A DNA stretch of 47,508 bases, taken from the NCBI GenBank assembly GCA_012522345.1, contig JAAYKO010000035.1, positions 1 through 47,508 on the forward strand, written 5' to 3'. Under the pieces are notes generated by a model. It had not been told where the DNA came from, did no database searches, and saw only the letters and a list, made by a program, of their open reading frames with translations. A program made the translations under genes and the position numbers. Positions 6,095 through 42,109 of the stretch are shown here, in pieces. Within the stretch, counting starts at the first letter, position 1, and every line of letters begins with the position of its first letter. This DNA comes from Acholeplasmataceae bacterium. GTDB lineage: Bacteria > Bacillota_I > Bacilli_A > Acholeplasmatales > UBA5453.

Positions 6095-6121
6095 CTAATG
6101 TTGTACTCCTTAAATATTTTC

Positions 6122-7693
6122 TTAATTGTTTAATTTTACTGGTAGTTTACCTTGGGGAATTAAATTACCTAAAAGATAGTTTTTTAACGTGTTTATTGAG
6201 TTTTTTGTATACTCATATAGACAGACATAATTTTTTATTTCTGGCAAAAGATGTAAATCAAAAGGATTTCTTAAACTAATGACATGAACCTCCAGGTTTT
6301 GGTTTAAAAGTTCTTTGATTAATGTTATTTGCTTTGAATACATATTTGCATTATAAGTTGTGATGATAGTTTGTTCATAATTTTTAGCTGTTTTTACAAA
6401 CTCAGCTATTTCTTCATCACTAGGATTTAGCTTTGCTGTTCGATAATCGAAGTCAGGAATTTCTTGTTGTAAAACTTTAGTTAAATTTTGCTTTTCTCCT
6501 TTTGATTCAACTAACGTAATCGCTTCTGGAAATTGGGCAATAAAAAGAGTTTTGTTATCTTTTTTAAATACTTCTCCCTTAACAAGTGTTAAGGCATTAT
6601 CAACAACATTTTGAGCAAATCTTTGGTGTTCAATTTTACCAACATTTTTCTTAACATCTAAATATTGTTTAGCTAAATTGGCTAGATTTAACTCGTTTTT
6701 ATATTTTAAAATTCGCTCAACTCGTTCATTTAAGACTTCTTCTCTTATTCTACCGCTTAAAACTGCTTCTTTAAGTACTTTAACCGCTGCTATTTGTTGT
6801 TCAGGATAATGACAATATAAAATTAAATTCGCTCCTGCAAGCAAGGCATCAACGGCTGCATCAACAGCTCCAAAATGATTATCAATAGCTTGCATTTCCA
6901 TCCCATCTGTCACAATTAAACCTACAAAGTTAAGTTCTGTTCTTAATAAATCAGTTAAAATTGGTTTTGACAAAGTTGCCGGAAATTTATTGTCCAATTC
7001 GGGATAAATTGCATGTGCTGTCATCACAGCTTTAATGCCATTTTCAATTGCCGTTTTAAACGGTTGTAGTTCAACTTCTTTAATCCTTTTTAAGTCTAAA
7101 TCAACTTTTGGCAAATCCAAATGTGAATCAACGCTTGCCTCGCCTTTTCCTGGAAAATGTTTAGCGGTTGCGAAAAGTTTTGTTTGAATTCCTTTTAAAT
7201 ATGCTTTTCCATACTCGCTTACCAAACTTGGATTATCACCATAACTTCTTACGCCAATCCCTGGATTAAGTGGATTGGTATTTACATCAAGAACTGGAGC
7301 AAAATTTAAATTAATGCCCAAAGCTGCCATTTCAATTGCCATATACTGACCTATTTGATAAGCATTTTTTAGATTATCGCTGGCACTAGTTGTCATCGCC
7401 CCTGGAAAGACTGTTGTCTGGTTAAACAATCTTGTAACCATTCCGCCTTCTTGATCAATCGCAATAAAAGCTGGTAGTTTAAGATGCTCCAACATTTTTT
7501 GTTGGATAGTTTTATTTAAATTGAAAAGTTTTTCTGGCGAACTAATATTTCTGGCAAATAAAATCACGTTTCCGAGTTTATAATCTTTAATCATTTTTTC
7601 AATTTCACTTGAATATTCATCGCCATAGAAGCCAAATACAATCAGTTGACCAAGTTTTTCTTCAAGTGTTAAATCGGCAATACTTTTAATCAT
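6122..7693 (-). CDS. GH3 beta-N-acetylglucosaminidase NagZ-like, copy 2 with altered loop
   Basis: A 523-residue paralogue of the next gene, aligning with it end to end and also lacking a signal peptide. The nucleophile motif VTDGMEM and the DSH dyad are kept, but the loop reads KHFPGKGEASVDSH instead of KHFPGHGDTHVDSH. The His and Asp-Thr of the usual GHGDT are thus replaced by Lys and Glu-Ala next to the sugar-binding site. This suggests a divided specificity, for example peptide-bearing versus naked, or anhydro versus reducing-end disaccharide. Its start overlaps the end of namZ by 8 bases. Function beyond GH3 glucosaminidase is inference. Confidence 0.9.
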   Translation of the reverse strand: MIKSIADLTLEEKLGQLIVFGFYGDEYSSEIEKMIKDYKLGNVILFARNISSPEKLFNLNKTIQQKMLEHLKLPAFIAIDQEGGMVTRLFNQTTVFPGAMTTSASDNLKNAYQIGQYMAIEMAALGINLNFAPVLDVNTNPLNPGIGVRSYGDNPSLVSEYGKAYLKGIQTKLFATAKHFPGKGEASVDSHLDLPKVDLDLKRIKEVELQPFKTAIENGIKAVMTAHAIYPELDNKFPATLSKPILTDLLRTELNFVGLIVTDGMEMQAIDNHFGAVDAAVDALLAGANLILYCHYPEQQIAAVKVLKEAVLSGRIREEVLNERVERILKYKNELNLANLAKQYLDVKKNVGKIEHQRFAQNVVDNALTLVKGEVFKKDNKTLFIAQFPEAITLVESKGEKQNLTKVLQQEIPDFDYRTAKLNPSDEEIAEFVKTAKNYEQTIITTYNANMYSKQITLIKELLNQNLEVHVISLRNPFDLHLLPEIKNYVCLYEYTKNSINTLKNYLLGNLIPQGKLPVKLNN

Positions 7694-8822
7694 AAATTTG
7701 ATACCGTTGTTTGATTTTTATAAACTTTGCTTGATCTTTTGCAAACTTTGCTTTTATTTGTTCAACTGACAGGAGACCTTCTGAAATAAAATTGTCGCCA
7801 ACATTTAAGTCAATCATCTTATTGCCGCCTGGACTATAAGGTGGATTGTATTTAAACTCTGGATGTAATTTTTCAATTTCTTTTAAAATTACCATCCCAG
7901 CATAAACTGGATCAAACTTACGAAAATCAGTTACATAAAACTCTAATCCTGCACAAAGTTCGTTGGCATATTTAAACATAATCGGGGTAAAATATAAACT
8001 TCGATATTTAAGATGAGGAATTTGATGTTTATTTAAATTTTCAATTAACTCCTGTGTCTTTAGCCAAGGAGCACCAATCATTGAAAATGGTTTAGTCGTT
8101 CCTCTTCCCTCGCTAACATTTGTCCCTTCAAAAATACAAGTTGCCAAATAGATAAATACTGATTCAGCAGTTGGTAAATTTGGTGAAGGAAGAACAAAAG
8201 GAAGATTATAATCAAACCAAATCGAATCGCTTTTATAGCCACTCATCTTAATCACTGCAAGGTCACAATTTATTTCAAATTGTTCGTTAAATAAAGTCGC
8301 AAGTTCTCCGACCGTAAGACCGTAACGCTGCGGGATTGAATAATAGCCGATAAATGAACGGAATTTCAAATCTAAAATATTGCCTTCAACTTTATTTCCG
8401 ACCGGATTAGGTCGATCAAAGACAACCACTTTTTTATTATGTTCTTTGGCTGCTTCCATCGCGTGAGCTAGTGTATAAATATAAGTATAAAATCGCGCTC
8501 CGACATCTTGAATGTCATAACAAATAATATCAATATCTTCTAACATTTCTTTAGTTGGTTTGCGGTGTTTACCATAAAGAGAATGAACAATCAAACCCGT
8601 TTTTTCATCATGATATTCGCCAAGTTTTATTGCATCTTGCAAGTCGCCTCTAAGTCCATGTTCAGGCGAAAAAAGCGCAACCAAATTAACCTTTTCAAAT
8701 AAAATATCAATTGTTGAGCGAAAGTTTTGGTCAATTCCGGTTGGGTTTGTGATTAGACCTACTCTTTTTCCTTTAAAAATTGCAAGATTTTCTTCTAAGT
8801 TTTCAATACCATATTTAAACAT
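7686..8822 (-). CDS. namZ: Exo-beta-N-acetylmuramidase NamZ (DUF1343/GH171)
   Basis: A 378-residue protein with the DUF1343 signatures GLITNPTGID (residues 22-31), FSPEHGLRG (about 52-60), DIQDVGARFYTYIYTL, VFDRPNPVG and FEGTNVSEGRGTT. The family was defined by Bacillus subtilis NamZ (YbbC), which removes MurNAc from the non-reducing end of glycan fragments. No signal peptide is present, in contrast to the secreted Bacillus enzyme, so it must act on imported fragments. Directly followed by two NagZ genes, it would alternate with them to dismantle MurNAc-GlcNAc chains. An AAGGAG site precedes the ATG. Confidence 0.93.
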   Translation of the reverse strand: MFKYGIENLEENLAIFKGKRVGLITNPTGIDQNFRSTIDILFEKVNLVALFSPEHGLRGDLQDAIKLGEYHDEKTGLIVHSLYGKHRKPTKEMLEDIDIICYDIQDVGARFYTYIYTLAHAMEAAKEHNKKVVVFDRPNPVGNKVEGNILDLKFRSFIGYYSIPQRYGLTVGELATLFNEQFEINCDLAVIKMSGYKSDSIWFDYNLPFVLPSPNLPTAESVFIYLATCIFEGTNVSEGRGTTKPFSMIGAPWLKTQELIENLNKHQIPHLKYRSLYFTPIMFKYANELCAGLEFYVTDFRKFDPVYAGMVILKEIEKLHPEFKYNPPYSPGGNKMIDLNVGDNFISEGLLSVEQIKAKFAKDQAKFIKIKQRYQIYD

Positions 8823-9450
8823 TTCTTTCTTCTCCTTTTAAAAAATTTAGCGGCTTTCTCGTCAATAGAACATTTAATACTGCGGGAACAGACAAGCCAC
8901 ACAAGACAAAAAACGGTGCTGTATAAGGGTTAAACAATAATAGAAAGGGAATTACATTAATCATTAACAATAACAAGGTTCGAAATAAATATTTACCTGC
9001 TAAATAAAATGATAATTTAAAGCCATTTTTAATTGAGATTTCTGCAAAGAGATGAAACACAGAAACACTATAAATCGCAATTAAATAAACACCTACTGTA
9101 AACATAAATGTTACGAAAAAACCCATGTAATAAAACCAGGAAGCATCGGCCTTAATATTATTGTTGTAGTAATACATATTAAGAATTCCAAAAGCGATTA
9201 GAAAAGCGAGGAGTGCCCCAAGACCAAGATTTTTTAGAAAATCTTTTTTTGTCAATTCCCAAATGCCTTTAAAAAGCGGAGTTTCTTTTCCTTCTGTATA
9301 ATCTTTAAATAACTCATAAGCCACTTTAAAGCCAATATAAAGAGTAACGATACCGATACTAAAAACAACTAAAACTATATTTAAAATAACAATTCTAATT
9401 ATCCAATCAGCGATTTTGTTGAGCTTTTGAAACCACGGCTTTTCAAACAT
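8815..9450 (-). CDS. DUF624 (YesL-like) membrane protein
   Basis: A 211-residue protein with about five membrane helices. The layout matches DUF624/YesL: an N-terminal amphipathic stretch, a helix around residues 17-40, a charged loop containing FKDYTEGKETPLFKG, then paired helices. YesL proteins are found beside CUT1 sugar ABC permeases and binding proteins in Firmicutes; their role is unproven but thought to assist the transporter. Here it follows two such permeases and overlaps namZ by 8 bases. Confidence 0.8.
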   Translation of the reverse strand: MFEKPWFQKLNKIADWIIRIVILNIVLVVFSIGIVTLYIGFKVAYELFKDYTEGKETPLFKGIWELTKKDFLKNLGLGALLAFLIAFGILNMYYYNNNIKADASWFYYMGFFVTFMFTVGVYLIAIYSVSVFHLFAEISIKNGFKLSFYLAGKYLFRTLLLLMINVIPFLLLFNPYTAPFFVLCGLSVPAVLNVLLTRKPLNFLKGEERNV

Positions 9451-9452
9451 CG

Positions 9453-10469
9453 CTAACCAACAATTCCTGTTCTTTCAATTGATTCAACAAAGCCTTTTTG
9501 AACAAACAGATAACCGATTAAAAGTGGCAACATCATCAATAAAGCCGCAACATTACTAATCAATGATAAAAACATTGGGTTAGTCCAAATATCTTGGCCA
9601 ATTAAAGTTAACCCTCCAGTATAAAACAAGGCAGCATACATTCCTTCAGCAGCATTTACTAACCTCATCGTTAAAACTGGGAAATTGGCGGTTGAAACTT
9701 CAAAGATACTGACATAATAAGCATCGTTCCACGCCCAAACAAAACTAAATAATGAAACCGTAACTAAAGCTCCTCTAGCATTGGGAAGCATAACTGACCA
9801 AAATGTTCTAAAAACTCCAGCACCATCAATTTGAGCTGACTCTTCTAATTCATGAGGCAAGCCTCTGAAAAACTGTCTAAAGATAAAGATAAAGATTCCA
9901 CTTCTAATTCCCATTCCAAGACCATTCATTAAATAAATCGAATACTCTTTACCCACAAGTTTCAATTGTCTAAAATATAAATATTGAGTTAAAGAGAGAG
10001 CTTGGGGAGGAATAATAATCGTTAAAATGACACCAAAAAATAAAATATTAGAGCCTTTAAAGCGAAGTCTGCTAAATGCATAGCCTGCAAGCGATGTTGA
10101 AACGAGTTGTAAAATCATTGAAATCGCACTCAATTTAGTAGTATTTAAAAGAGCTTTCCAATAATCTAAAACAATTATCGCGATTTTAATATTTTTAACA
10201 CTCCAAACTTCCGGAATCCAAATAACTGATGGTTTATTGACATCTTCTGGCGCTCTTAGCGCTTGTAAGATTTGTTGAATTGTTGGAAATAAAATAACAA
10301 AACAAAGCCCCAATAAAAATAGATATCTAAAAAATGAACCGAAAAACTTGCTGTATTTTCGCTTTCGTCTAAATACTTTTGCAGGTTCCATAAACTCATC
10401 ATATTTTTTCTGGATAAATCCTTTTCTTTTAATTGTCGGTTCAACTACATTTTGATCAATCTTTTTCAT
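9453..10469 (-). CDS. CUT1 sugar ABC transporter permease, MalG/UgpE type (pair 2)
   Basis: A 338-residue inner-membrane permease with six predicted helices and the ATPase-docking EAA loop LPHELEESAQIDGAGVFRTF in the second half, as in MalG-type subunits. An N-terminal cytosolic extension of about 45 charged residues makes it longer than the other MalG-type permease in the operon. It overlaps the MalF-type partner upstream by 14 bases. No ATP-binding subunit lies in the window, so a shared MsmX/UgpC-like ATPase from elsewhere is likely. Confidence 0.92.
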   Translation of the reverse strand: MKKIDQNVVEPTIKRKGFIQKKYDEFMEPAKVFRRKRKYSKFFGSFFRYLFLLGLCFVILFPTIQQILQALRAPEDVNKPSVIWIPEVWSVKNIKIAIIVLDYWKALLNTTKLSAISMILQLVSTSLAGYAFSRLRFKGSNILFFGVILTIIIPPQALSLTQYLYFRQLKLVGKEYSIYLMNGLGMGIRSGIFIFIFRQFFRGLPHELEESAQIDGAGVFRTFWSVMLPNARGALVTVSLFSFVWAWNDAYYVSIFEVSTANFPVLTMRLVNAAEGMYAALFYTGGLTLIGQDIWTNPMFLSLISNVAALLMMLPLLIGYLFVQKGFVESIERTGIVG

Positions 10470-11385
10470 AGTGCGATTCTCCTATCTTGAAGACTTTAGC
10501 AAGTAAAAATAAGACCAACAACAAAGTCAGAATGGTTCCGACATAAATCCAAGCCATTGCTGAAGATAGTCCCCATTTTTGTTTACTGAACTCTGATGAG
10601 ATAATATTTGAAATGCTTGATGTTAAAAATGAATCAACTATTGCATAAATTGTTACCGTTACAATGTGAACTGAAACATTGGGAAGCGTAATTAACCAAA
10701 ACATTTCATAACCTGTTGCGCCTTCAATTGTCGCTGCTTCATAGAGATGTTTAGGTACACTTTGAATTGCCGCTAAAAATAATAATATCGGTACCCCTGC
10801 TAGGGTTAAAATATTATAAATTCGGTCGATTAAGCCAACCACCAGCAAGACTAAATCTGTGCCGATTCCCATGTTAAGTAAGTATTGATCTAAGGCGAAT
10901 AGTTGGATTGCGCTTTCTTCTAAAAGTAAATCGGTAATAACGCCTCCACTGCCAAGGGCAATCGTTACAGCAGCAGAGTTTAAGATTACAGGAATAAAGA
11001 AGATCGCTCTTACGATTGCTCTGCCGCGAAACTCGTGGTTTAGTAAAACAGCAATAAACAAACTAAAAATTAACAAGACTAGTAAATTAATTAACGAATC
11101 TTGAACAGTTTCATATAATTCCAGTTTAAAGCTAGTATTACCATAGACATGCTCTCTAAAAGCGAATATATAGTTATCAAATCCAACGAACTCTTTTAAA
11201 ATAGCTCCAAACTCTGGTTTTAAAGTAAAGAAACTATAGTAAAATGATTGCACAAATGGATATAAAAACAGTGTCACAAAGCCAATAAACCATGGTAATA
11301 AAAACACTATTCCCCAGAGAACTTTACGGTGTTTGTATTTTAGTTTTGAGACTTTGGGTGCTTTTATTGCTTTATTTTGCTCCAT
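10456..11385 (-). CDS. CUT1 sugar ABC transporter permease, MalF/UgpA type (pair 2)
   Basis: A 309-residue permease: short basic N-terminus, first helix around residues 25-45, extracellular loop, then the core of five helices with the EAA loop VPKHLYEAATIEGATGYEMF. It forms a heterodimer with the MalG-type protein encoded next, whose gene it overlaps. AAGGAGG precedes the ATG. This is the second permease pair of the operon; the first lies at 16.1-17.9 kb. Confidence 0.92.
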   Translation of the reverse strand: MEQNKAIKAPKVSKLKYKHRKVLWGIVFLLPWFIGFVTLFLYPFVQSFYYSFFTLKPEFGAILKEFVGFDNYIFAFREHVYGNTSFKLELYETVQDSLINLLVLLIFSLFIAVLLNHEFRGRAIVRAIFFIPVILNSAAVTIALGSGGVITDLLLEESAIQLFALDQYLLNMGIGTDLVLLVVGLIDRIYNILTLAGVPILLFLAAIQSVPKHLYEAATIEGATGYEMFWLITLPNVSVHIVTVTIYAIVDSFLTSSISNIISSEFSKQKWGLSSAMAWIYVGTILTLLLVLFLLAKVFKIGESHYEKD

Positions 11386-11387
11386 AT

Positions 11388-13988
11388 TTATGCCTCCTTA
11401 ATCACTTTATAATCAACACTCTTAACTAAAAGTCCAGCAACTGTAACATCATTTAAGCCGTAATTGATATAAAGTTCTAAACCATTTGAATAAGTAACTT
11501 TATAAACATCTTTACTTACTCTCTCATGATTTATTAATCTACCCTCGTGAAGTTTTAGCGTTTTTAATTGATCGACATGCGATTCAATTGTCTCAAGCCA
11601 ATCCTCATAAAATGTCGCTAAAAACACATTATAATCTGTATTAATTAATTTTTTCGGATTATCATAAGTTAAAGTATATTTTAAATTGGAACCTGTTTCT
11701 AAAACACGCAAGAAATTGTGTTTAACACTTCTTGTCGTACTTAAGTTAATACTATTTGCTGAATAATCTACATAACCAGACAAAACCAGTTGGATTAAAG
11801 GAATATGTCCATCAATAATTGAATAAAGTGTTGTGTCGGTAGGTAAATCAACGATATAATCTGCATAACTTATTGCTACCCCTAAAGGATTAGATAAAAG
11901 AATTTTTCGTTCAATCTTGCTGAGCAAGTTATGTTGAATTCTTAACGCATCATCTTTGTAAATTTGTTTGCCTTTTTTATAATTGCCCGCTAAATATGAG
12001 CCCAAGTTATTAGGTGCGATATTTTTACCCGGCAATTTCTGATCAAGTTTATTATAAATAGCTTCATAATAAAGCGGATTAATTACGAAGTTATCATCAG
12101 AATGCGGATACATCGTCTCACTATAAGGTAAACCAGTTGGTAGATGATACTCAAAAGCTTTTGCATGCGAGCCATTGAGCCGTGACGCAGTATAACTATA
12201 TTGATCAAAAAATCTGCGATAAGAGTTTGCTAAAGTAACATCGATCTGCAAGTAAAGCGGAACATTTAGCTCTTCGAGATATTTTTCTAACCTTTGATAG
12301 CCCTTTTTACCGCCAAGAACTCTTTCAACTTTAGCTTGAGTTTGAATTGAACTCTTCAAGCCGCCATTTAAAACTCCGCGGTAAACAACATTTAAAGCGA
12401 TATCTTTTTCTCTTAAAATATCAACTATTTCTTCTGCTTGTTTAAAAGTAGTCAACGATTTAACTTGATTGTATGGCACCCCAAGGAAAAACGAACGTTG
12501 ATCATAAGCACCTAAAAACTCCGCCGTAACAACCGGCTCTGTTGTTTGATCAATTTGCTTAAAGCCAAATTCTTCGGTTAAATAATCCCGGTAAGCATTA
12601 GCGATTCCTACATAGTTATTATCAGCGCCAGTAAGAAGTCTATAACTAACTGTTAAATCTGTATTAATAATATTTTGAGTCCAAAGGTTTAACGAATACG
12701 TTGTATAACCTGTTCCCAAAGTAATCAGTTCATTTTCACGAATTTGAAAGACTGGATAAATTTTATTATAAGAGTCAGTTCTCCCAGAGGTGTCAGCGAC
12801 AATATAACTTTGGGCGTCGCCTTCTTTAATAATTGCTGCGTAACCTCCATCTTCTTTAACCATCCCATAGAGTGGAATTGTAATTCGTTCTTGATCTTCT
12901 GGTTGTTTGTAACTCAAAAGAGCTAAATCTTCACCATAAACTCGTTTTCGATATGGGTTTTGAGCTTCTTTTCCATTATTAAACTCTAAAATTGCTCCAC
13001 TACCATCAGGTATTACTAAATAGCCATTGGTTGGGTTATCACCGATATCTGATACTGCTGTACCTAAATGAGGAAGTAGAGTTATTTCAGCAATTTTATG
13101 ACCTCTCCCCTCTTTAATTGATTCTCTGATCACTGAAACATCAAAGCCCTTTTCAGTTAAGATAACTTGCATTCCAACTTGAAATGAAACTTTTTCAAAA
13201 GAATCAAAATAACCATATTTAGCATTTTCTTCAATTGAAATATCACGGGTATAACCTAATTTTGGACTGCCATCCGGATGATAAAAGATACTAAACAAGC
13301 GCTCTTTTACTAAATAGCTCATCGTTTCATAAGCATTGATATAATAGAGCTCTTTATCGCGGTCATATTGATAGATTAAAGATTCCAAAATACTCGCTGC
13401 AGAAAAATATTCAAAGACATCAGCAGGAATATATTTAGGAAAATATAAGTGGTCAATCTCTTGGTCTTCAATTTGATATAAAACTTGAAAGCCTTGGGTT
13501 AAATATTTAATTTGAAATGTCCGCGCTCCCTCTTCATGGAGAAGTGTTTTTGGATGGTAAATACTATAACGATAATTAGTTAGACTAGCGAGCGAACCCT
13601 CTTTGCTGAAATATTTTAATTCAAGTGTCGCTTTTTGTCTTTCTTTAGCGTTGTTGGTAATAAACTTATCGGCATATTTACCTTCAGTAGCTTCCCACGG
13701 ATCCGGTTCAGTTGGATTTGAGTTCCAAACATATCCGCTTCTTAAATCAACAACTTTAAAATACGATGTTGTCTCATCGACATAAAGTTCATAAGTATTA
13801 TTTTTAGAAACTAATTTGTTTGTATCACTTAAAGTTTGAGCATCAACAAAACCTGCCTCGCTAAAAGGAATCAAATCGGGGTTTGCGCTGACTTTGATTG
13901 GTTTTAATTTGAATAAAAACAAATATAAAACAACTCCAACTATTAAAACAGGAATAATTAATAATTTAAAGTTAAACTTTCTTTTCAT
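11388..13988 (-). CDS. Membrane-anchored DUF5696 family protein
   Basis: An 866-residue protein with one N-terminal membrane helix (about residues 6-25) and a large extracellular part. The segment NGYLVIPDGSGAILEFNNGK, in the first half, is the mark by which I recognise DUF5696, a family found with CUT1 transporters, YIP1 and NHL/TPR proteins in Paenibacillus and Clostridia. The second half alternates strands and helices in a way that resembles a TIM barrel, so it may be a glycoside hydrolase-like protein, but no function is established. The ATG at 13986-13988 was chosen for its AGGTGG site; a GTG four codons upstream is less well placed. Confidence 0.8.
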   Translation of the reverse strand: MKRKFNFKLLIIPVLIVGVVLYLFLFKLKPIKVSANPDLIPFSEAGFVDAQTLSDTNKLVSKNNTYELYVDETTSYFKVVDLRSGYVWNSNPTEPDPWEATEGKYADKFITNNAKERQKATLELKYFSKEGSLASLTNYRYSIYHPKTLLHEEGARTFQIKYLTQGFQVLYQIEDQEIDHLYFPKYIPADVFEYFSAASILESLIYQYDRDKELYYINAYETMSYLVKERLFSIFYHPDGSPKLGYTRDISIEENAKYGYFDSFEKVSFQVGMQVILTEKGFDVSVIRESIKEGRGHKIAEITLLPHLGTAVSDIGDNPTNGYLVIPDGSGAILEFNNGKEAQNPYRKRVYGEDLALLSYKQPEDQERITIPLYGMVKEDGGYAAIIKEGDAQSYIVADTSGRTDSYNKIYPVFQIRENELITLGTGYTTYSLNLWTQNIINTDLTVSYRLLTGADNNYVGIANAYRDYLTEEFGFKQIDQTTEPVVTAEFLGAYDQRSFFLGVPYNQVKSLTTFKQAEEIVDILREKDIALNVVYRGVLNGGLKSSIQTQAKVERVLGGKKGYQRLEKYLEELNVPLYLQIDVTLANSYRRFFDQYSYTASRLNGSHAKAFEYHLPTGLPYSETMYPHSDDNFVINPLYYEAIYNKLDQKLPGKNIAPNNLGSYLAGNYKKGKQIYKDDALRIQHNLLSKIERKILLSNPLGVAISYADYIVDLPTDTTLYSIIDGHIPLIQLVLSGYVDYSANSINLSTTRSVKHNFLRVLETGSNLKYTLTYDNPKKLINTDYNVFLATFYEDWLETIESHVDQLKTLKLHEGRLINHERVSKDVYKVTYSNGLELYINYGLNDVTVAGLLVKSVDYKVIKEA

Positions 13989-14000
13989 TATTATCACCAC

Positions 14001-14642
14001 CTAATAACGCAAACGCAATTCTTGGTAAATCGATGCAATAAACGCGATAAATTGCTGTATCAAGTCAAAAAACAACAATCCTAAAAAGGCCATGAATGCC
14101 ATCGCCACAATAGTTAAAATAAAGGTGAGGATTGTTTTTAAGAGGCCATACTCGTGGATATTTAAAATTCCCATAAAAAGCATCCAACCGGTTAAAAAGT
14201 ATGCTGTTCCCATTAATAAAGTATAAATTCCCATCTCTTCGAGAGTTAGAAAATTAGAAAGAAAAACTGCTGGAAAACCGATAAAAATAAGTGGGAATAA
14301 AGAATAGCCTGTCACGATTAAAATCTCTTTATATTTACCTTTTCCTTCTAACAGAGTTGTCATACTCCAATTACCAACGGTAAATAAAAAGATTAATAGA
14401 ATAACTGAAAACAGTTCAGTTACCGTATTTAAAGCCAGAGGATCTCTTTGGTTAATAATTACACTCTCGCCTAAATAAATATAGATTCTCAGTAAGACAA
14501 AAAGAATAATAAAGATAATGGCAACATATAATTTACCCTTTTTATATCTCTTTAATTCTTCATAACCATCGAAGGGATGAAAAAGAACATAAAAAGGAAA
14601 TTTGACAAAATTTGTCCAAAAAGTTTTTAGTTTAGTCTTCAT
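14001..14642 (-). CDS. YIP1-domain membrane protein
   Basis: A 213-residue protein with about five hydrophobic helices after a short positively charged N-terminus that contains FPFYVLFHPFDGYEELKRYKKG. Such a 'HPF.G.E..K' lead-in followed by a five-helix bundle is typical of bacterial YIP1 (PF04893) proteins. It overlaps the NHL/TPR gene upstream by 11 bases and precedes the DUF5696 gene, a trio repeatedly placed inside CUT1 transporter operons. A role in assembling or energising the surface complex is conceivable but unproven. Confidence 0.75.
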   Translation of the reverse strand: MKTKLKTFWTNFVKFPFYVLFHPFDGYEELKRYKKGKLYVAIIFIILFVLLRIYIYLGESVIINQRDPLALNTVTELFSVILLIFLFTVGNWSMTTLLEGKGKYKEILIVTGYSLFPLIFIGFPAVFLSNFLTLEEMGIYTLLMGTAYFLTGWMLFMGILNIHEYGLLKTILTFILTIVAMAFMAFLGLLFFDLIQQFIAFIASIYQELRLRY

Positions 14643-16125
14643 ACAATAACGACTCTCCTTTTTTATGTTTTTTATAAATTATTCTCGTAATTATGAGGCC
14701 CGCCAAGACAACAATTCCTAAAAAGATATAACCAAAGTTATCCCTTAAAATTTGGTTGCGATATTCTTTATAAGCTTTTGAGTAATAATAAGAATCATGT
14801 CCTAATTTAAAGTTTTCAATCGCTTCTTTATAGCGTCCTTCTCTAAGTAAATACTTACCAATTCCATTATAAGCAATTTCATAGTTAGCGTTTTTAGTTA
14901 ACAATTCTTCCCAAATCTCTGCCGCTTCATCAAATTTACCGACATCATGGAGTTTAATCGCTTGATTAACAAGTTCACCAAACTCACTTAAGCGGTAAAC
15001 AATGAAAGTTTTACTGCTTCGATCTAAAACTATTAAATCATCGCCGAGATATTTGACTGCTACTCCTTGCGCAAACTTATCTGATTGCCGACCTGCACTA
15101 CCATTAATATAGAGGAGATTTCCTTCCGAATCATAAGTAAAGATGCGTGATCTTCTTTGGTCTAAAACACTATAAATGCCACCTTCAGTATAATCGATAT
15201 CGACAAGTTGACTCGGTCCAGTTATAACGTAATTGTTTCTTCCCTCAAGATAATGAATATCTCCCATCGGTGGGAAATAACCTGTTCGGTTTATTACATC
15301 GACACCTTTAGGGTTGATCAATTGGATTGTGTTTGTCGCACTAGTACCACTCGGTTTACTAGTAGCGTAAATAAATGAGTTTTCATTAATTGTCACACTA
15401 GTATATTCAGTAGGCAAATATCTTCTTAGTTTTGCGAGTTGAGCTTCAGTCATAAAAGAACGTCTAAAAATTTCAATCGCGGTTAAGCGGATTGGGTTAA
15501 CACCTGTAAAACGGTTAAATGTTCCATCACTTGAGAGTTCCACAATTCCTTCAAAAATCTCTCTTACAACAACATACATCCGTTCTGAAACATCAACTGT
15601 AATTTTTGAAGGTTTAAAAGGCATCTCTTCAAACACTGGATCTTGAGGATCGGAAAAGACATCAACAACTTCAAAATTATGATTTAATTTAAGAATTCTT
15701 TCATTATCTGTATCAGCAATATAAATTCCTGATGGTTTCACATCGATACCTAAGGGCTTCTTCAATGTTAAAGCGATTATGTTATCATTCTCATCAACAA
15801 CATATGAATCGGCAATAAATTCTAAGTTAGGATCCATCTCAGCAGCAAAACTAAACTCTGAATAAGCTGCTTTAACATTAAAGTTGCTATCGATAATCGT
15901 GAGTTCATTAGTTCCGGAATCAACTAAATAAATATCATCTTCATAAACAACAAAATATTCAGGTGTTGACATTTTTGTCCCTAAAGCTGCATTGTCAAAA
16001 TAACCAACAAATGTCATCCCAGGCGAAGAATGAATTACATTCCCATAAAAGGAATAGTTATAAGTTGAACCAATTAACATTGGCACTAACAAAAGAATTA
16101 AAATAAATAATAATAACTTTTTCAT
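14632..16125 (-). CDS. Extracytoplasmic NHL-type beta-propeller with TPR and C-terminal membrane helix
   Basis: A 497-residue protein with a signal peptide or anchor at residues 1-20. Repeats of the NHL kind follow, for example VDSGTNELTIIDSNFNVKAA and IADTDNERILKLNHNFEVVD, forming a probable beta-propeller to about residue 380. Two TPR-like units (AAEIWEELLTKNANYEIAYN, YKEAIENFKLG) span about 400-445, and a C-terminal helix (about 462-482) is followed by a basic tail. The large domain should lie outside with the tail in the cytoplasm. It is co-transcribed with the YIP1 and DUF5696 genes. No enzyme motif was recognised; it may be a scaffold. Confidence 0.8.
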   Translation of the reverse strand: MKKLLLFILILLLVPMLIGSTYNYSFYGNVIHSSPGMTFVGYFDNAALGTKMSTPEYFVVYEDDIYLVDSGTNELTIIDSNFNVKAAYSEFSFAAEMDPNLEFIADSYVVDENDNIIALTLKKPLGIDVKPSGIYIADTDNERILKLNHNFEVVDVFSDPQDPVFEEMPFKPSKITVDVSERMYVVVREIFEGIVELSSDGTFNRFTGVNPIRLTAIEIFRRSFMTEAQLAKLRRYLPTEYTSVTINENSFIYATSKPSGTSATNTIQLINPKGVDVINRTGYFPPMGDIHYLEGRNNYVITGPSQLVDIDYTEGGIYSVLDQRRSRIFTYDSEGNLLYINGSAGRQSDKFAQGVAVKYLGDDLIVLDRSSKTFIVYRLSEFGELVNQAIKLHDVGKFDEAAEIWEELLTKNANYEIAYNGIGKYLLREGRYKEAIENFKLGHDSYYYSKAYKEYRNQILRDNFGYIFLGIVVLAGLIITRIIYKKHKKGESLLYED

Positions 16126-16134
16126 ATAACCCTC

Positions 16135-17016
16135 CTATTTCATTCCAGATGTTTGGAATGTCTCAAGGACTCGTGATTGTGAAATAATAAACATCGTTAC
16201 GGGAACAATCATCATCACAAAACTCACCGCAGCAATTGTTCCAGCCCGCTCCACAGAACCTTGAGCAATCTGGCTTAAAGCATAGGAAACTGGTTTGAAT
16301 TCTTCACTAAAGATAAACGAGCCACCTGTATGAGTCCAAAGCCTTTGGAAAAGCAAAATAATCAATGTTATCCAGGCAGGTTTAACAAGGGGCATTGCGA
16401 TTTGCGCATAAATCCGGTATTCGCTTGCTCCATCTATTTTTGCTGATTCAATTAATTCATGAGGAATTTGTTCCATAAACTGCTTCATCAAATAGAGACC
16501 TAAACTTGAAGCTATTGCTGGCAAAATAATTGCTAAAGGTGTATCAATTAATCTAATTCGGGAGACAATAATATAGTTTGGTGTTGCCGTAACTTGCGGG
16601 GCAAACATTAAAGAATAAATAACAATTGTGAAAAAGAGATTTCTGCCGGGAAACCTATACTTAGCAATCGGATAAGCACACATCGATGCCAATATAACAT
16701 GACCAACTGTGCCTCCCAAGGTGATAATTATTGTGTTGAAGAAATATCTTGTAAAAGGAATCCATGATTGGCTCATCAATTCAGATAGATCTCTAAAATT
16801 ATCAGTAGTTAAGTTTCTCGGTAATAATCTTGGTGGGAATAAAAATAGTTCATCTAAAGGTTTAAAGGCATTGGAGACTGTCATCACTAATGGATAAGCA
16901 CTAAATAGCCCAAATAAGAGCATCAGTAAAAACATCATAATATCGCCAAATAAGCTTCGATTTAATTTGCGTTTTCTAGTAAAAAATCTTTTAAATTTGG
17001 ATGGTGTTTTTTTCAT
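16135..17016 (-). CDS. CUT1 sugar ABC transporter permease, MalG/UgpE type (pair 1)
   Basis: A 293-residue permease with six predicted helices and the EAA loop IPHELIESAKIDGASEYRIY. The C-terminus RVLETFQTSGMK fits the MalG-type ending. The ATG at 17014-17016 was chosen because GGTGA precedes it at good distance; an upstream GTG overlapping the previous gene is possible. It lies next to its MalF-type partner with a one-base gap. Confidence 0.92.
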   Translation of the reverse strand: MKKTPSKFKRFFTRKRKLNRSLFGDIMMFLLMLLFGLFSAYPLVMTVSNAFKPLDELFLFPPRLLPRNLTTDNFRDLSELMSQSWIPFTRYFFNTIIITLGGTVGHVILASMCAYPIAKYRFPGRNLFFTIVIYSLMFAPQVTATPNYIIVSRIRLIDTPLAIILPAIASSLGLYLMKQFMEQIPHELIESAKIDGASEYRIYAQIAMPLVKPAWITLIILLFQRLWTHTGGSFIFSEEFKPVSYALSQIAQGSVERAGTIAAVSFVMMIVPVTMFIISQSRVLETFQTSGMK

Positions 17017-17017
17017 C

Positions 17018-17944
17018 TTATTCACCGATCCTTCTTAAAACTTTTCTAACAAGTAAGTTAGTTCCAACCATCAACAAAAACAGCAAGGTCGCGATTGCGC
17101 TAGCATAGCCCAAATCAAATTGGTTGGACCCAAAGTCCATTAAATGGGTGACAATTGTATGTCCTGCATATTGAACAGAAGGGAATCCCACTAGTTGAAT
17201 CGAGACTTCTGCGATTGCTAAACTTGTTGTGATTTGCATAACAGCGCCAAATAATAATTGTGGTTTCATCGATGGTAAAGTTATATACCATAATTCTTGC
17301 CACCGGTTTCTAACTCCATCAATCGCTGCAGCTTCATAGAGTGTTTTATCAACATTTTTAAGTCCCGCAATAAACGCTAAGAAACTAACTCCTAAGCTAA
17401 GCCACAATTGCACAATAATAATAACTGGCAAAATATATTGTTCACTTCTTAACCAAATAATTGGATTATCAATCAAATCATATTTAAGTAAAAAAGCATT
17501 TAAGTAGCCGTGAGCATCACCAGAGAAAATAATTAGCCACATTAAAAAGGCATTACCGCTGATTGATGGTGCATAAAAGATTAAAGTCATAAACGAACGG
17601 AGTCGGTTAGGAAGTTCATTGATCAACCAAGCGAAAAAGAACGCCAAAATATAACTAACAGGTCCCGTGACAACAGCTAAAATTAAAGTGTTTTTTAAGG
17701 AAATGATAAAAATATCGTCCTCTAACAATAATTTAATATAATTGTCTAAACCAATAAATTTGGGTGTTTCTAAAAGGTTGTAATAAGTAAAGGAAATTCC
17801 TAAACTCATAAAGACCGGGACAACAGTAAACAAAATAAACAACAAGGCAAATGGTGCCATCAACACATAAAGGTGTCTACTTTGTTTTACTTGGTGAATA
17901 AAGTTTTGCCAACGTGTCTTTTGTAAAGTAGCTGTTTTTTCCAT
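17018..17944 (-). CDS. CUT1 sugar ABC transporter permease, MalF/UgpA type (pair 1)
   Basis: A 308-residue permease: cytosolic N-terminus, first helix about residues 29-51 (YVLMAPFALLFILFTVVPVF), then the transport core with EAA loop VDKTLYEAAAIDGVRNRWQE. It is encoded directly after the two binding proteins, in the standard order binding protein, MalF-type, MalG-type. It resembles the LplB/YtcP-like branch of oligosaccharide permeases. The substrate is inferred from the operon to be peptidoglycan fragments. Confidence 0.92.
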   Translation of the reverse strand: MEKTATLQKTRWQNFIHQVKQSRHLYVLMAPFALLFILFTVVPVFMSLGISFTYYNLLETPKFIGLDNYIKLLLEDDIFIISLKNTLILAVVTGPVSYILAFFFAWLINELPNRLRSFMTLIFYAPSISGNAFLMWLIIFSGDAHGYLNAFLLKYDLIDNPIIWLRSEQYILPVIIIVQLWLSLGVSFLAFIAGLKNVDKTLYEAAAIDGVRNRWQELWYITLPSMKPQLLFGAVMQITTSLAIAEVSIQLVGFPSVQYAGHTIVTHLMDFGSNQFDLGYASAIATLLFLLMVGTNLLVRKVLRRIGE

Positions 17945-17954
17945 ACGATAACCT

Positions 17955-20864
17955 CTATTCTAAGCCAAACTCACGCCGTTTCTTCTCTAACTCTTTATTA
18001 ATTACTTGTACATAATCATAAATTGTTTCGCGTGGGTTTGTACTATCTGCAATTACTTTTCTAAATGCATTATCTAAGTGTCTTCCTGTCATATATGCAC
18101 CAGGCACTTCTGGAATCCCTCTCGTCCACTGCCATTGTTCAGAAAGAATGGTCGCTTCTTTGACTGTCCATGGTAAACTTTCCATTGCCGCAACATTTGC
18201 AGTAGGATACCTCGCTGCAGCACCTAAAATACCTTCCATTTCTCGACCAAAGCGAGTTTGAATTTCCGTTGAAAGCCACCATTTTAAAAATTCCCAGGAA
18301 GCTTCAGGATTTTTACTCTGTTGTAAAATCATCGAACCGCTAACTGCAGAAACAGTTTCTCTTCTAATTGTCTCATTCCCGTTAGAATCAACTACTTTAG
18401 TGCCGGGAACTAAAGAAAAGTCCCATTTACCTCTAATCTCTGGCGCAAAAACTGCTAGAGTATTGTAAGTATTATAGTAAGTCAACCCAATCGGCATTTG
18501 ACCACTGCGAAAGCGGTTAATAAAGTTAGCATCTAAAACAAATGAATAATCTGTATAAAATCGCGTCCAAGTTTCAAATACTTTTGGTCCCATTCCTTCA
18601 CTAAAACCAGATGCTTTTCCAGCTTCTAAGTAAAACTCGCCATCATTTTGATAAAACATTGTCGCAAACACAGGATTTGGTGGAACCATCATTGCACCAA
18701 CACTAGCTGGAAGTGGCAAGTAAAATTCCAAATTATGTTTTTGTAAGTCAGGGATTAATCCAATCATTTCTTCCCAAGTGCTAGGAACCTTTAAATCAAG
18801 CTCTTCAAAAATATCTGTGCGATAGAACATTACTAAAAAGGTCTGTGTCTCTGGAAGTGCATATGTCTTATCTAAATATCTAAATGGCACCATCGCACTT
18901 TCATGAAACTGGGTACTAATAGCGTTAAAATCTGTAAATTGTGATAAATCATAAGCGGCATTTCGCATTGCATAATTAACCGGAACATTCGAACCAACAC
19001 CTAAAGCAACATCAGGTCCTTCTCCTGCTAGAGTGGCAGGTAATAATGCTGCACCACTTACGTGTTTTAAGTTAACTTGAATATTTTGGTTTGGCGTAAA
19101 TTGTTCATCAATTAGTCGTCTTAAAATATTTGTTTGGTCACGACCAACAGAAATCCAAACATCAATTGATTCCCCACTTTCAGTTGTTGTTGTTCCAACT
19201 GCTGAGTAATCGATTGTAAACGAAGCAACAAATGATTTTAACCCAAACCAAAGTGTCTCAAATAAACTTTCACTGCCTTTTGGCATCTTTTCTTTGCTGG
19301 AATGAATTATAAAATAATCAATCTCAAGCGGTTGTTGGTCTAAAAGAACTAACAGCGTTCCAAGTGATGCAATATTGTTTTCGTAATGAGTGAGTTTCTT
19401 ATGAATTTCACTAGGTTTTTTCAAGAAATTATCCAATTGAAGTAATACTGTATCTAAAATTCCAGTTTTCTCACTTTTTGAGCCGGAAATTTGAATGATT
19501 CCTTGCCGTACACGCTTTAAAGCATCTCTTTCTGCTTCAAATCTAGCTAATAAATCAGGAATTCGTTCATGAAGACGATAGTCTCGATATTCATCAGGTT
19601 TTGTCCCTGTAAAGATTAAAATCTCACGATAAATTCTATTTAAATTGTTAATTGAATGGTTAACTTCTGAAATTAAAAGACCATACTGACCTAAAGAAGT
19701 TTCCATTTTTAAAGTATGCTTTCCCTTTTCTAAATAGAATAAAAAGGCCTCTTTTTTTGTCCCAAGAGTTTGAATTCGCCACTTATTGGAATGAACAAAC
19801 TCATAGTTTTGAAGTTCTTTAAAAGGAATTTCATCATCGAGATAAATATTTCTAAAAACTGTCATCCCAGTGGCAAGTTTTTGTTTAACTCGCAGACTTA
19901 TCTCATATAAACCAGTTTCTGGAACATCAAGTTCCCACTCAATCATACTACCAGCAACTCGCCAATTAATTCCCCCTATTGAATTAAGTTTAATTTTTGA
20001 TGGGTCACTTGGGATTGTAAGTGGACTCGAACGATCATTTAATGGATAAAGCGTTGGTGCTGTTGTCATTGAGGCCTGTTCAGCTTGAACAAGTTGGAAT
20101 TCATTTGCAACTTTTTGATATCCCTTTTGGAGATAACTAGCCTTAACATTTTCATAACTTGGAAGTTCTTTGACACTTTTTAGTTCGATTTTACCGATTA
20201 CCATCGGCTCTCGCAAAGATTCTAATTTTAAATGATTAACACCTTTTTCAAAATAAAACTCATAAGGTTCAGCAACATATCCTGCGGGATCTTTAAGATA
20301 GGCATTAATCCAACGTGGTTTTTCGATCTGTCGTGGTCTAATATCATTGCCGAAAATATCTTGTTTGATTTCACCTTCATTACCCCAAGTTCTTAAAAAG
20401 ATAATATTGGAAGCTGAATCAAAAGGAATTTCATCATTGAGATAAAAGGCTCTTTCGATATCAGAACTTTTTCCTTCAGTTGGAAAATATGTCAGTAAAA
20501 CACGATAAAAACCTGCTTCACTTACTTCTACTGCATAAGTAACTGAACCAGATTCCTCTGTTAAAAGCGTGTTTGACAATCCTTGATATGTTTGAATAAT
20601 TTCATGGTTTCCATCAATTTCTAAATAATTAGAACCTAAAATTGGATTTGGTTCTTGTTCTGGATAATTTTTTGGAAACTTATTTTTATAAATATAGTAA
20701 TCCGAATTTGTTTCAAAAATAGTTGAATCAAAATCTGTACTTTTAGTATTATGGACTAAATAATCTTTTTTTACTAAAGTAATTGTCAAATTAATAAACC
20801 CATATAAAATAAAAATGCCCACTAATGAAATTAGTGCAATCCAAAATTTTTTAATATAAATCAC
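17955..20864 (-). CDS. Membrane-anchored fusion of carbohydrate-binding-like domains and ABC solute-binding protein
   Basis: A 969-residue protein. An N-terminal membrane helix spans about residues 8-30. Two beta-sandwich modules follow (about 80-235 and 255-400), each with the repeated elements 'GFYRVLLTYFP ... IERAFYLNDEIPFD' and 'GLYEISLRVKQ ... VFRNIYLDDEIPFK', resembling CBM35-type or hexosaminidase-linked binding domains. After a helical linker comes an extracellular solute-binding domain of CUT1 type (about 570-969: GEGPDVALGVGSNVP, YALPETQTFLVMFYRTDIFEELDL). It sits between the lipoprotein binding protein and the permeases. The start is uncertain: GTG at 20862-20864 is fused to the AAGGAG site with no spacing, while an ATT three codons on has ideal spacing. 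Confidence 0.82.
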   Translation of the reverse strand: MIYIKKFWIALISLVGIFILYGFINLTITLVKKDYLVHNTKSTDFDSTIFETNSDYYIYKNKFPKNYPEQEPNPILGSNYLEIDGNHEIIQTYQGLSNTLLTEESGSVTYAVEVSEAGFYRVLLTYFPTEGKSSDIERAFYLNDEIPFDSASNIIFLRTWGNEGEIKQDIFGNDIRPRQIEKPRWINAYLKDPAGYVAEPYEFYFEKGVNHLKLESLREPMVIGKIELKSVKELPSYENVKASYLQKGYQKVANEFQLVQAEQASMTTAPTLYPLNDRSSPLTIPSDPSKIKLNSIGGINWRVAGSMIEWELDVPETGLYEISLRVKQKLATGMTVFRNIYLDDEIPFKELQNYEFVHSNKWRIQTLGTKKEAFLFYLEKGKHTLKMETSLGQYGLLISEVNHSINNLNRIYREILIFTGTKPDEYRDYRLHERIPDLLARFEAERDALKRVRQGIIQISGSKSEKTGILDTVLLQLDNFLKKPSEIHKKLTHYENNIASLGTLLVLLDQQPLEIDYFIIHSSKEKMPKGSESLFETLWFGLKSFVASFTIDYSAVGTTTTESGESIDVWISVGRDQTNILRRLIDEQFTPNQNIQVNLKHVSGAALLPATLAGEGPDVALGVGSNVPVNYAMRNAAYDLSQFTDFNAISTQFHESAMVPFRYLDKTYALPETQTFLVMFYRTDIFEELDLKVPSTWEEMIGLIPDLQKHNLEFYLPLPASVGAMMVPPNPVFATMFYQNDGEFYLEAGKASGFSEGMGPKVFETWTRFYTDYSFVLDANFINRFRSGQMPIGLTYYNTYNTLAVFAPEIRGKWDFSLVPGTKVVDSNGNETIRRETVSAVSGSMILQQSKNPEASWEFLKWWLSTEIQTRFGREMEGILGAAARYPTANVAAMESLPWTVKEATILSEQWQWTRGIPEVPGAYMTGRHLDNAFRKVIADSTNPRETIYDYVQVINKELEKKRREFGLE

Positions 20865-20925: not shown

Positions 20926-23259
20926 TTATTCTGAGTAATATTCATCAATTCGATTTTGATAAATTGGGGCTATCGATTCTAATCTTGAACGATAATCTCC
21001 ATTTACGATACCGGAGTTAACGTTGACTCTAAACGCATCTGCTCCATATGATGAAACCATCGCGTTAAGAACCTCAGCATAAACTTTATCTGAAATCGAC
21101 AAATATGCATCTACATAACGTTGATCATCAAACTTAGTCAAAAGATAAGTTTCAAAGTCAGTTCCTTCATCCCAAATTTGCAAGTCAATCCAAACATCTA
21201 AAACCAATTTAGCACGTGCAGCTGACATTCCGCTTGATAACATCGCCATTGAAACACCATAAATTGGTGATTTATATTCTCCTCTGTAATCATCGCCCAT
21301 TGGATAAGGAACAAAACCTAATTCAAAGCTAACTGGTCCCCATCTATTTTCAGCAGTAATAAACCAAAGATCTCCCGGATGCATTACTACTCTTCCACCG
21401 CGCCATTCTGCAGAACCAGCATCATAACCTCGGTTTGGCTCAAATAAGTCATCTTTGTACAAACCTTCAATAAAGGCAATCGTGTCGACAGCAGGTCTGG
21501 CAGTAAAGGCTACTTTTTTAGTTCTTTCATTGATGAATTCGCCACCATTTAAAGGAATCATATTTTCAGCATAATAAGAGAAATGCCCTCCTAAGGTGTA
21601 ATAAGGATTCTCTTCACTTGAGACCGCTTTTAAAGCTGCTTGAGTTTGAAGAGCCCAAGCTTCAAATGTTGACCATGTCCACTCGCCAGCTAAATAGAGG
21701 TCCGTTGGATTAGGAACACCTAACTCATCGACTAAATCAGCATTGAAATACAGGCCTGATTCTAAGGAAAGTGAACCCGGATTAAAGCCGTAATACTTAC
21801 GGTTAAATAAGCCTGCCGCTAACATTGTGGGTTCTAACTTTTGTCCACCTGGAGTTGATAGATAGAAATCAATTGGAGCAATTCCGCCCCCACTTGCCAT
21901 CTGAGGAATCCAGTCGGTTGTAACGTGATAGAAAATATCAGCCATTCGGGAACCAGAAACACTCGCTTGAATAATCGCATCTATTCTTGATGGTCCCCAT
22001 GCTGCATTATCCGGATAAGGTGGATATTTAACTTCAACATCATGTTTAGCCTCAGCTGCCCGCTGGATATCTTGGCGTTTTCTTTGATCTGTTCCTGTAT
22101 AATCACTGCGGAATGGGTCAAGCTCTCTTGGGTCACCTGACATAATTATTATTGTTTGTTTACCTGCTGTTTTTGGAATAACTGCGACTATTCTTTCTTT
22201 AGTATCAGTATTTCCTTCAGAACCAACAACTGTATAAACAAGTGTGTAACTTCCAACAGTGCTAACATCTACTGTTCCCTCGACTTCGATATCTGCAGTA
22301 ATATCACCTAGTAATGAATCTCTAGCTTCTATACCTGCTTTTGGATCAAATTCTCCACCCACTTCAATTTCAACAGCTGCAACATTTAAAATTTCAACTC
22401 GGATATAAACCGTTACAATCCGCTCAACCTCAACTATTTCTCCTTGGGCATCTTTTAAGTATTCAAACTCATCTTCTTCGCCATCTTCAACTGGAACTTT
22501 AATTCGGTAAGTTAAAGTGTACTCACCAGTCTTAGTAAGATCTAAATCTTCTGTTCCAGTCACTTCAAGATACTCGGTTCGAGTTATTGTAGTTGGATTA
22601 CCTTCTTCATCTAAAATAGATTCAGATGCTGTAACATTAAGTTTCGGATTAAATTCTTTGTTAATTTCAACATTAACATCATTAGCGCCATAAATCATCG
22701 GTTGACTAACAACAGTTATTGTTCTGGTGTGGGTAATTGTAACATTTTCAACAGTCGCTTTATAAACAATTTCATAAACACCTTCTGTTTTAGTATCTAC
22801 TTCACCAGTAATCTCAAAGTGAGCATCGTATTCTGCTTCTACGTAGGCATTTTTTCTCCCAATTTGTGGATCCATTAGATAAACACCTGACTTAGTATTA
22901 AACGATGCTACCCCTAGCGCAACATTGCGGTCAGAAACCCCATTTAAGGTAAAGTTTTCAACAATAACCTTGCGCACTAATTCATCTTTTGAACCATCAC
23001 TACCAATGATTGTGTAAGTGATAATATACTCACCCTCTACATCGGTGTCAACCGTTCCTTCATAAGTGATTTTATTACTGACATCACCTTTGACAGAATC
23101 TTTTGCACTAATACCTGCAAGAGGATCAAAGTCACTCTTATAACGAATAGTCGTTTCTCGTGGTCCGCTTAAAATAGCTGGCCCTTTTTCATCATCTCCA
23201 CAGCCGAAAAGTAAGACTGAAGAAACTAATAAAATTGCCAATAAAAATATTCTTTTCAT
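20926..23259 (-). CDS. Lipoprotein solute-binding protein with four Ig-like domains
   Basis: A 777-residue lipoprotein: signal peptide with lipobox LLFGC (Cys20). Four bacterial Ig-like/DUF5011-type modules follow (about 30-105, 106-190, 190-295, 296-365), each ending in the 'GTVDT..EGEYIITYTI.GS.G' pattern. A CUT1-type extracellular solute-binding domain fills about 370-777 (TIIIMSGDPRELDPF, ADIFYHVTTDWIPQMASGGGI, LYFNADLVDELGVP). The Ig modules probably act as a stalk holding the binding domain away from the membrane or as glycan-binding modules. It is first in the long import operon, with its own promoter and a strong GGAGAGG site. Peptidoglycan-fragment binding is inferred from neighbours. 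Confidence 0.9.
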   Translation of the reverse strand: MKRIFLLAILLVSSVLLFGCGDDEKGPAILSGPRETTIRYKSDFDPLAGISAKDSVKGDVSNKITYEGTVDTDVEGEYIITYTIIGSDGSKDELVRKVIVENFTLNGVSDRNVALGVASFNTKSGVYLMDPQIGRKNAYVEAEYDAHFEITGEVDTKTEGVYEIVYKATVENVTITHTRTITVVSQPMIYGANDVNVEINKEFNPKLNVTASESILDEEGNPTTITRTEYLEVTGTEDLDLTKTGEYTLTYRIKVPVEDGEEDEFEYLKDAQGEIVEVERIVTVYIRVEILNVAAVEIEVGGEFDPKAGIEARDSLLGDITADIEVEGTVDVSTVGSYTLVYTVVGSEGNTDTKERIVAVIPKTAGKQTIIIMSGDPRELDPFRSDYTGTDQRKRQDIQRAAEAKHDVEVKYPPYPDNAAWGPSRIDAIIQASVSGSRMADIFYHVTTDWIPQMASGGGIAPIDFYLSTPGGQKLEPTMLAAGLFNRKYYGFNPGSLSLESGLYFNADLVDELGVPNPTDLYLAGEWTWSTFEAWALQTQAALKAVSSEENPYYTLGGHFSYYAENMIPLNGGEFINERTKKVAFTARPAVDTIAFIEGLYKDDLFEPNRGYDAGSAEWRGGRVVMHPGDLWFITAENRWGPVSFELGFVPYPMGDDYRGEYKSPIYGVSMAMLSSGMSAARAKLVLDVWIDLQIWDEGTDFETYLLTKFDDQRYVDAYLSISDKVYAEVLNAMVSSYGADAFRVNVNSGIVNGDYRSRLESIAPIYQNRIDEYYSE

Positions 23260-32147: not shown

Positions 32148-32202
32148 CTTAAACACCTCTTTTAACTTCGACACTAACTTAATAAAATCTAAAAAATTGT
32201 TT

Positions 32203-38691: not shown

Positions 38692-38694
38692 CAA

Positions 38695-41113: not shown

Positions 41114-41129
41114 TTTTTTCTCCAATACT

Positions 41130-41195: not shown

Positions 41196-41227
41196 GGAAA
41201 ATAAAAAGGGTAAAACAATCACCCTTT
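41196..41227 (-). terminator. Terminator of the RpiR regulator gene
   Basis: Arms AAAGGGT (41205-41211) and ACCCTTT (41221-41227) with a nine-base loop, followed on the minus strand by a T-rich tail TTTTATTTTC. The hairpin overlaps the stop codon of the regulator gene and separates it from the anmK promoter. Confidence 0.85.
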
Positions 41228-42071: not shown

Positions 42072-42081
42072 ACTCTCACCC

Positions 42082-42095
42082 CTAAAACGTTTCCA
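42082..42095. promoter_or_regulatory. Weak cre-like site at the start of the regulator transcript
   Basis: Minus-strand TGGAAACGTTTTAG has the AAACGTTT core and fits 11 of 14 cre consensus positions. It lies at the predicted transcription start of the RpiR gene. Confidence 0.35.
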
Positions 42096-42100
42096 CTCCA

Positions 42101-42109
42101 ATTATAACA
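42101..42109 (-). promoter_or_regulatory. Extended -10 promoter of the RpiR regulator
   Basis: Minus-strand TGTTATAAT, identical to the elements before the chromate transporter pair and the M29 peptidase. No good -35 is seen. The predicted leader is about 25 bases. Confidence 0.65.

Follow-up and report, generated by a model that had tools for sequence, protein, structure and literature searches.

The stretch of DNA considered here, the window, is contig JAAYKO010000035.1 of an Acholeplasmataceae bacterium, 47,508 nucleotides long. At exactly 11388-16125 it carries three open reading frames (ORFs), all on the minus strand, coding for membrane proteins: one with NHL and TPR-like parts, one with a YIP1 domain, and one of the DUF5696 family (hereafter the trio, in order of transcription). 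An earlier note on this DNA had seen them as three adjoining genes set between two pairs of CUT1-type permeases, and the layout bears this out. The genes are co-directional and overlap or abut: those for YIP1 and NHL/TPR share 11 nucleotides, DUF5696 abuts YIP1, and 2 nucleotides separate DUF5696 from permease B1. Permease pair A (16135-17944) flanks the trio on one side, pair B (9453-11385) on the other, and all four permeases display an EAA loop. MalF/MalG-type permeases of this kind and a sugar solute-binding protein (SBP), two of the marks by which a CUT1 importer of the ATP-binding cassette (ABC) type is recognized, are both present. The genes in question, with transmembrane segments abbreviated as TM, are the following:

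17955..20864, minus strand: large SBP of 969 residues, with an N-terminal TM, a CBM35-like region, a helical stretch and a C-terminal SBP domain (SBP_bac_8/1)
17018..17944, minus strand: permease A1, MalF/UgpA type, EAA loop (PF00528)
16135..17025, minus strand: permease A2, MalG/UgpE type, EAA loop (PF00528)
14632..16125, minus strand: NHL beta-propeller, TPR-like helices and C-terminal TM, 497 residues (AlphaFold2 model with a predicted local distance difference test score, pLDDT, of 81.7; Foldseek)
14001..14642, minus strand: YIP1-domain membrane protein, 213 residues, about five TM by hydropathy (PF04893, 46 bits against a gathering cut-off of 28.6)
11388..14000, minus strand: DUF5696 protein, 870 residues (PF18952, 499 bits against a cut-off of 25.6; 2e-149)
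10456..11385, minus strand: permease B1, UgpA type, EAA loop (UgpA match; Pfam score of 24.3 bits, slightly below the cut-off of 26.4)
9453..10469, minus strand: permease B2, UgpE/MalG type, EAA loop (PF00528)

The same eight parts across genomes

This succession (large TM-anchored SBP, A1, A2, NHL/TPR, YIP1, DUF5696, B1, B2) makes up a cassette that recurs well beyond the window. The source genome (1.34 Mb, 88.8% complete) has four DUF5696 genes, each inside an identical eight-part order. We collected 64 loci from relatives and from genomes with a name, among which are Acholeplasma laidlawii, A. oculi, A. equifetale, a Ruminococcus and a Lachnospiraceae bacterium; these loci are not all independent, because some of the named ones belong to the same genomes as others. 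An automatic test recognized all eight parts in order in 51 of them. The remaining 13 we read as contig ends, runs of N, fusions, or cases where an antisense ORF hid a gene from the filter. Loci from Clostridia keep the arrangement with different cargo genes. All loci were recruited via DUF5696, so that the order is conditional on this protein: long-type DUF5696 comes with the cassette, the converse being outside the scope of the survey. Of the genomes sampled in the phylum, 41 of 295 carry DUF5696; in a sample of the clostridial class the figure is 42 of 148, a count that includes short relatives without a cassette.

Trees of seven of the parts are congruent over 49 distinct loci (Spearman 0.83-0.93, the best of 300 permutations reaching 0.21). 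Each of the four permeases shows its EAA loop in 45 to 49 of these 49 loci. The invariant unit thus comprises, besides the trio, both permease pairs and the large SBP, a point absent from the earlier note. That note had the trio recurring close to CUT1 transporters of Firmicutes; this is correct and stronger than claimed, amounting to an essentially invariant order, and the conserved neighbourhood supports the earlier view of the trio as an accessory of a glycan importer. That the trio is part of the importer we consider likely.

The large SBP matches the Lin1841 SBP (1e-30), and its N-terminal half matches 5x7g (2e-9), the carbohydrate-binding part of a cycloisomaltooligosaccharide glucanotransferase, placed here ahead of the SBP domain; we take this part to be a CBM35. 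Two further genes of the operon complete the picture:

20926..23259, minus strand: second SBP, a lipoprotein that combines Ig-like repeats with a solute-binding region at its C-terminus (Ig-like; SBP hidden Markov model, HMM)
8815..9450, minus strand: MusI/YesL-like membrane protein, an optional accessory (NF052431, 44 bits, below the cut-off of 160)

The family of the Ig-like lipoprotein matches SBP_bac_1 in 13 of 16 members, and an SBP HMM for which relatives served as seed gives the window protein 320 bits. Since these relatives carry an SBP domain, the window has two SBPs. In those peptidoglycan loci that were inspected, the MusI/YesL-like ORF likewise follows permease B2. For the ATPase, OB_MalK has one strong match in the genome (contig C26) and a weak one, neither inside a cassette; the MalK-type ATPase of C26 may well pair with the window importer.

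A glycosidase fold without its acidic pair

Behind an N-terminal TM anchor, the DUF5696 protein consists of a beta-supersandwich and a barrel of the GH129/GH101 type. Its AlphaFold2 model (pLDDT 82.4, predicted template modelling score 0.84) retrieves 5opq first in Foldseek (1.6e-27, template modelling score 0.65 by target), followed by NagBb (7e-21) and by EngBF and SpGH101 (about 1e-14). Family profiles compared with solved structures point to ZgGH129 (5opq and 8rzg, about 2e-7), NagBb (0.014) and EngBF (0.046), and a single-sequence phmmer search of the PDB with DUF5696 gave no match. Searching the phylum for GH129 members, with no positive control, gave none and is therefore uninformative. 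Relatives also give weak DUF5696 matches, one of which we examined and discarded as a GH13 amylase that shares the barrel only. The family is named in none of the open-access papers searched; subscription journals were outside the scope, and a prior description is possible.

Short relatives from Clostridia (561-668 residues) align to the cassette proteins almost end to end (hhalign probability 100, 1e-47), and three of their loci, L158-L160, read with flanks, have no permease cassette alongside. These stand-alone proteins have one Asp in 12 of 12 and one Glu in 12 of 12, spaced by 43 residues in L158; from this invariance and from the fold, they are the putative catalytic pair, Asp as nucleophile and Glu as acid/base. 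The PDB titles name as mutated residues D486 in ZgGH129 and D764/E796 in SpGH101. The short relatives (L158-L169), still uncharacterized, resemble in sequence active glycosidases.

In 74 cassette proteins the pair is lost: Asp fills the first column in 12 of them, while at the second 8 have Glu and 6 have Asp. The Asp at column 665 in those 12 could be taken as a sign of kept activity, a reading we rejected because acids stand at both columns in only 2 of the 74, where chance would give about 2.5. The window protein has Asn and Ser instead, and the sites of interest are these:

12006..12008, minus strand: codon of Asn665, in the column of the putative nucleophile Asp (hhalign mapping)
11892..11894, minus strand: codon of Ser703, in the column of the putative acid/base Glu (computed mapping)
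12993..13013, minus strand: IPDGSGA motif, residues 330-336, near-invariant in cassette DUF5696 (74-protein alignment)
12927..12938, minus strand: YGxD motif, residues 355-358, conserved in cassettes and falling in a gap in the stand-alone relative (alignment)

Because the pair is lost, cassette DUF5696, that of the window included, is very probably a pseudo-glycosidase. The earlier note had thought of a possible enzyme, to be recognized by a barrel with acidic residues at its mouth; the barrel is there in the model, the acidic pair is replaced, and the suggestion of an enzyme is not supported. Its interpretation as a whole is partly supported. In place of the pair, the cassette proteins conserve the two motifs: Asp332 of the first is kept in 71 of 74, with Arg at this position in the aligned stand-alone relative, and both motifs are candidate cassette-specific contact sites.

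Large ectodomains, proposed for all three, are found in the NHL/TPR and DUF5696 proteins; the YIP1 protein has none by hydropathy, and a phmmer search of the PDB with it gave no match. In the NHL/TPR protein, the TPR scores below the Pfam cut-off, and the NHL repeats, uncalled by Pfam, are evident from structure, the propeller of the AlphaFold2 model being nearest in Foldseek to the NHL domains of TRIM71, TRIM2 and Brat. NHL/TPR and YIP1 are fused into one protein in many loci, two of the four in the source genome among them (666-685 residues). Because they form one polypeptide in many relatives, we see them as one unit, whose propeller and TPR-like arm would stand outside, tied to the YIP1 domain in the membrane. 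None of the open-access papers searched combines three of YIP1 family protein, NHL repeat, SBP and carbohydrate ABC permease, and an earlier description elsewhere is possible.

Cargo genes and peptidoglycan salvage

Around the cassette lie genes for handling a particular cargo:

41226-42101, minus strand: RpiR/MurR-type regulator (profile matches)
39974-41125, minus strand: AnmK (profile matches)
26361..30542, minus strand: secreted lipoprotein with an Amidase_2 domain (PF01510, 1.3e-18; lipobox-like N-terminus)
7686..8822, minus strand: NamZ exo-beta-N-acetylmuramidase, without signal peptide (PF07075/PF20732)
6122-7693 and 4529-6094 (span 4529..7693), minus strand: two NagZ-type GH3 beta-N-acetylglucosaminidases, without signal peptide (profile matches)
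3622-4629, minus strand: BadF/NagK-type sugar kinase (profile matches)
2706-3620, minus strand: MurQ-type SIS protein (profile matches)

NamZ, NagZ, the kinase and MurQ make up, by genes alone, the set for salvage of N-acetylmuramic acid (MurNAc). NamZ and both NagZ have neither a signal peptide nor a TM segment by hydropathy, and the Amidase_2 lipoprotein probably strips peptides from glycan strands. NamZ occurs in 25 of 290 genomes, all 25 positive for DUF5696 (hypergeometric 1e-25, shared ancestry ignored). No transpeptidase was found in the source genome, a draft 88.8% complete, which fits its wall-less relatives. Read from gene content, the cargo in this window is the peptidoglycan of other bacteria. 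From 2706 to 42101, the window displays a complete salvage set for the glycan of peptidoglycan in a transpeptidase-free genome, which suggests that the walls of other bacteria serve as food.

Elsewhere the cargo differs. Other cassettes of the source genome neighbour a PF10091 lipoprotein (contig C54) or a GH130 (C60), and in other genomes one meets a GH16 with a GH94-like protein, GH35, GH5 or GH31. Since the neighbouring enzymes vary and the core is constant, the trio is a cargo-independent part. Further genes of the cluster are a tandem pair of NAGPA (phosphodiester glycosidase) proteins (30546-33801), a tandem GHL10 pair (36112-39906), one with a signal and a C-terminal TM and the other without signal peptide, and an 845-residue secreted protein with a C-terminal TM and no Pfam match (23482-26019), weak relatives of which hold the same place in several Acholeplasma-type loci.

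A proposed accessory core for glycan import, and rival readings

Several known systems help to place the cassette. It resembles CUT1 importers such as MalEFGK2 and UgpABCE in its MalF/MalG-type permeases with EAA loops, its family 1/8 SBPs and its separate ATPase; it differs from them by its two permease pairs with three extra membrane proteins in fixed order, and by an SBP with a TM anchor and a CBM35-like region. DUF5696 has the supersandwich and barrel of the GH129/GH101 glycosidases (ZgGH129, NagBb, EngBF, SpGH101); unlike them, it does not keep the Asp/Glu pair, is anchored in the membrane and belongs to a transporter cassette. Bacillus subtilis salvages MurNAc with murQ-murR-murP-amiE-nagZ-namZ, where NamZ and NagZ are secreted. 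The window has NamZ, NagZ, MurQ, a MurR-type regulator and an amidase as well, but here an ABC importer replaces the MurP phosphotransferase system, and NamZ and NagZ lack signal peptides. MusEFGK2I of Corynebacterium is a CUT1 maltose importer with an accessory membrane protein, a feature echoed in the window by the MusI-like ORF, although this falls well short of the family cut-off; the Mus system has nothing that corresponds to DUF5696, YIP1 or NHL/TPR. Finally, AlgM1M2SS of Sphingomonas is a case of ABC import of a long polysaccharide, alginate, with digestion in the cytoplasm. The likeness is one of concept, drawn from description and not from sequence, and by description this system has one permease pair and no DUF5696, YIP1 or NHL/TPR.

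The scenario we favour starts outside the cell. The secreted amidase would remove the peptides from the peptidoglycan of other bacteria, and the trio with the carbohydrate-binding SBP would capture the glycan chains at the surface and pass them to the permease pairs, powered by the shared MalK-type ATPase. The membrane-anchored DUF5696 protein would hold or guide the chain, or dock the SBPs, without cutting. The strand, or its longer pieces, would then enter the cell, where cytoplasmic NagZ and NamZ would dismantle it from the end, before the kinase, MurQ and AnmK act. Cytoplasmic NamZ and NagZ, being exo-acting, imply imported glycans longer than a monosaccharide. An SBP with a carbohydrate-binding region, a propeller and a glycosidase fold that might hold sugar without cutting it suit chain capture, and on these grounds we propose for the trio a role in capturing chains and guiding them. 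As a whole, this explanation (a trio forming the accessory core of a glycan importer with two CUT1 pairs, and a dead glycosidase in DUF5696) seems to us moderately probable; that the trio guides long chains is a conjecture we would rate somewhat lower. Several points weigh against it. Physical contact between the parts of the cassette is a conjecture, and cytoplasmic exo-enzymes would also fit a cell that takes up disaccharides or short oligosaccharides. Calling DUF5696 a pseudoenzyme depends on a profile alignment across a poorly conserved stretch, part of which (residues 600-640 and 675-677) has low model confidence. With loci recruited via DUF5696, double permease cassettes devoid of it could not surface, and the source genome is an incomplete draft.

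Other explanations must be balanced against this one. The two permease pairs, complete and with EAA loops throughout, might be two independent co-transcribed importers, each with its own SBP and taking up a different product of the same glycan, the trio only helping to assemble or anchor the SBPs. The second, lipoprotein SBP of the window and of many loci would suit them. However, independent transporters need neither an order invariant across cargoes nor a trio always lodged between the pairs, and 30 of 84 stretches yielded no second SBP (many of them cut, and the HMM narrow), so that we see this as unlikely. It is more improbable still that DUF5696 is an active glycosidase using other residues, such as the conserved Asp730 and Glu768, and trimming chains at the membrane before import. 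To be sure, its fold is that of genuine glycosidases, and an acid is found at column 768 in 71 of 74 proteins and at column 730 in 59 of 74. Yet Glu768 looks structural, because the stand-alone relatives hold it alongside their usual Asp/Glu pair; the canonical pair is lost; and a single enzyme would have to suit cargoes as unlike as peptidoglycan and glucans. Least credible of all is a trio acting outside the transport path, as a surface sensor that signals to the cell whether glycan is bound: NHL and TPR modules serve as scaffolds for binding and YIP1 is not known to have a transport role, but Pfam finds in the trio neither a kinase, receiver or anti-sigma domain nor any other output domain, and the cluster already has its RpiR/MurR regulator.

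Returning to the accessory-core reading, a bolder version would make the cassette a separate class of ABC importers, in which four permeases, two SBPs and an NHL-YIP1 subunit form one complex together with a pseudo-glycosidase guiding long glycans of many polymers into the cytoplasm of wall-less bacteria and Clostridia. This is tentative, and we would not wager on it. In general, three protein families so far without a role receive one that can be tested, and a carbohydrate-enzyme fold has apparently been recruited into a transporter. For bacteria without an outer membrane, the cassette points to a way of importing long glycans, and wall-less bacteria probably live on the cell walls of other bacteria, digesting the glycan inside the cell.

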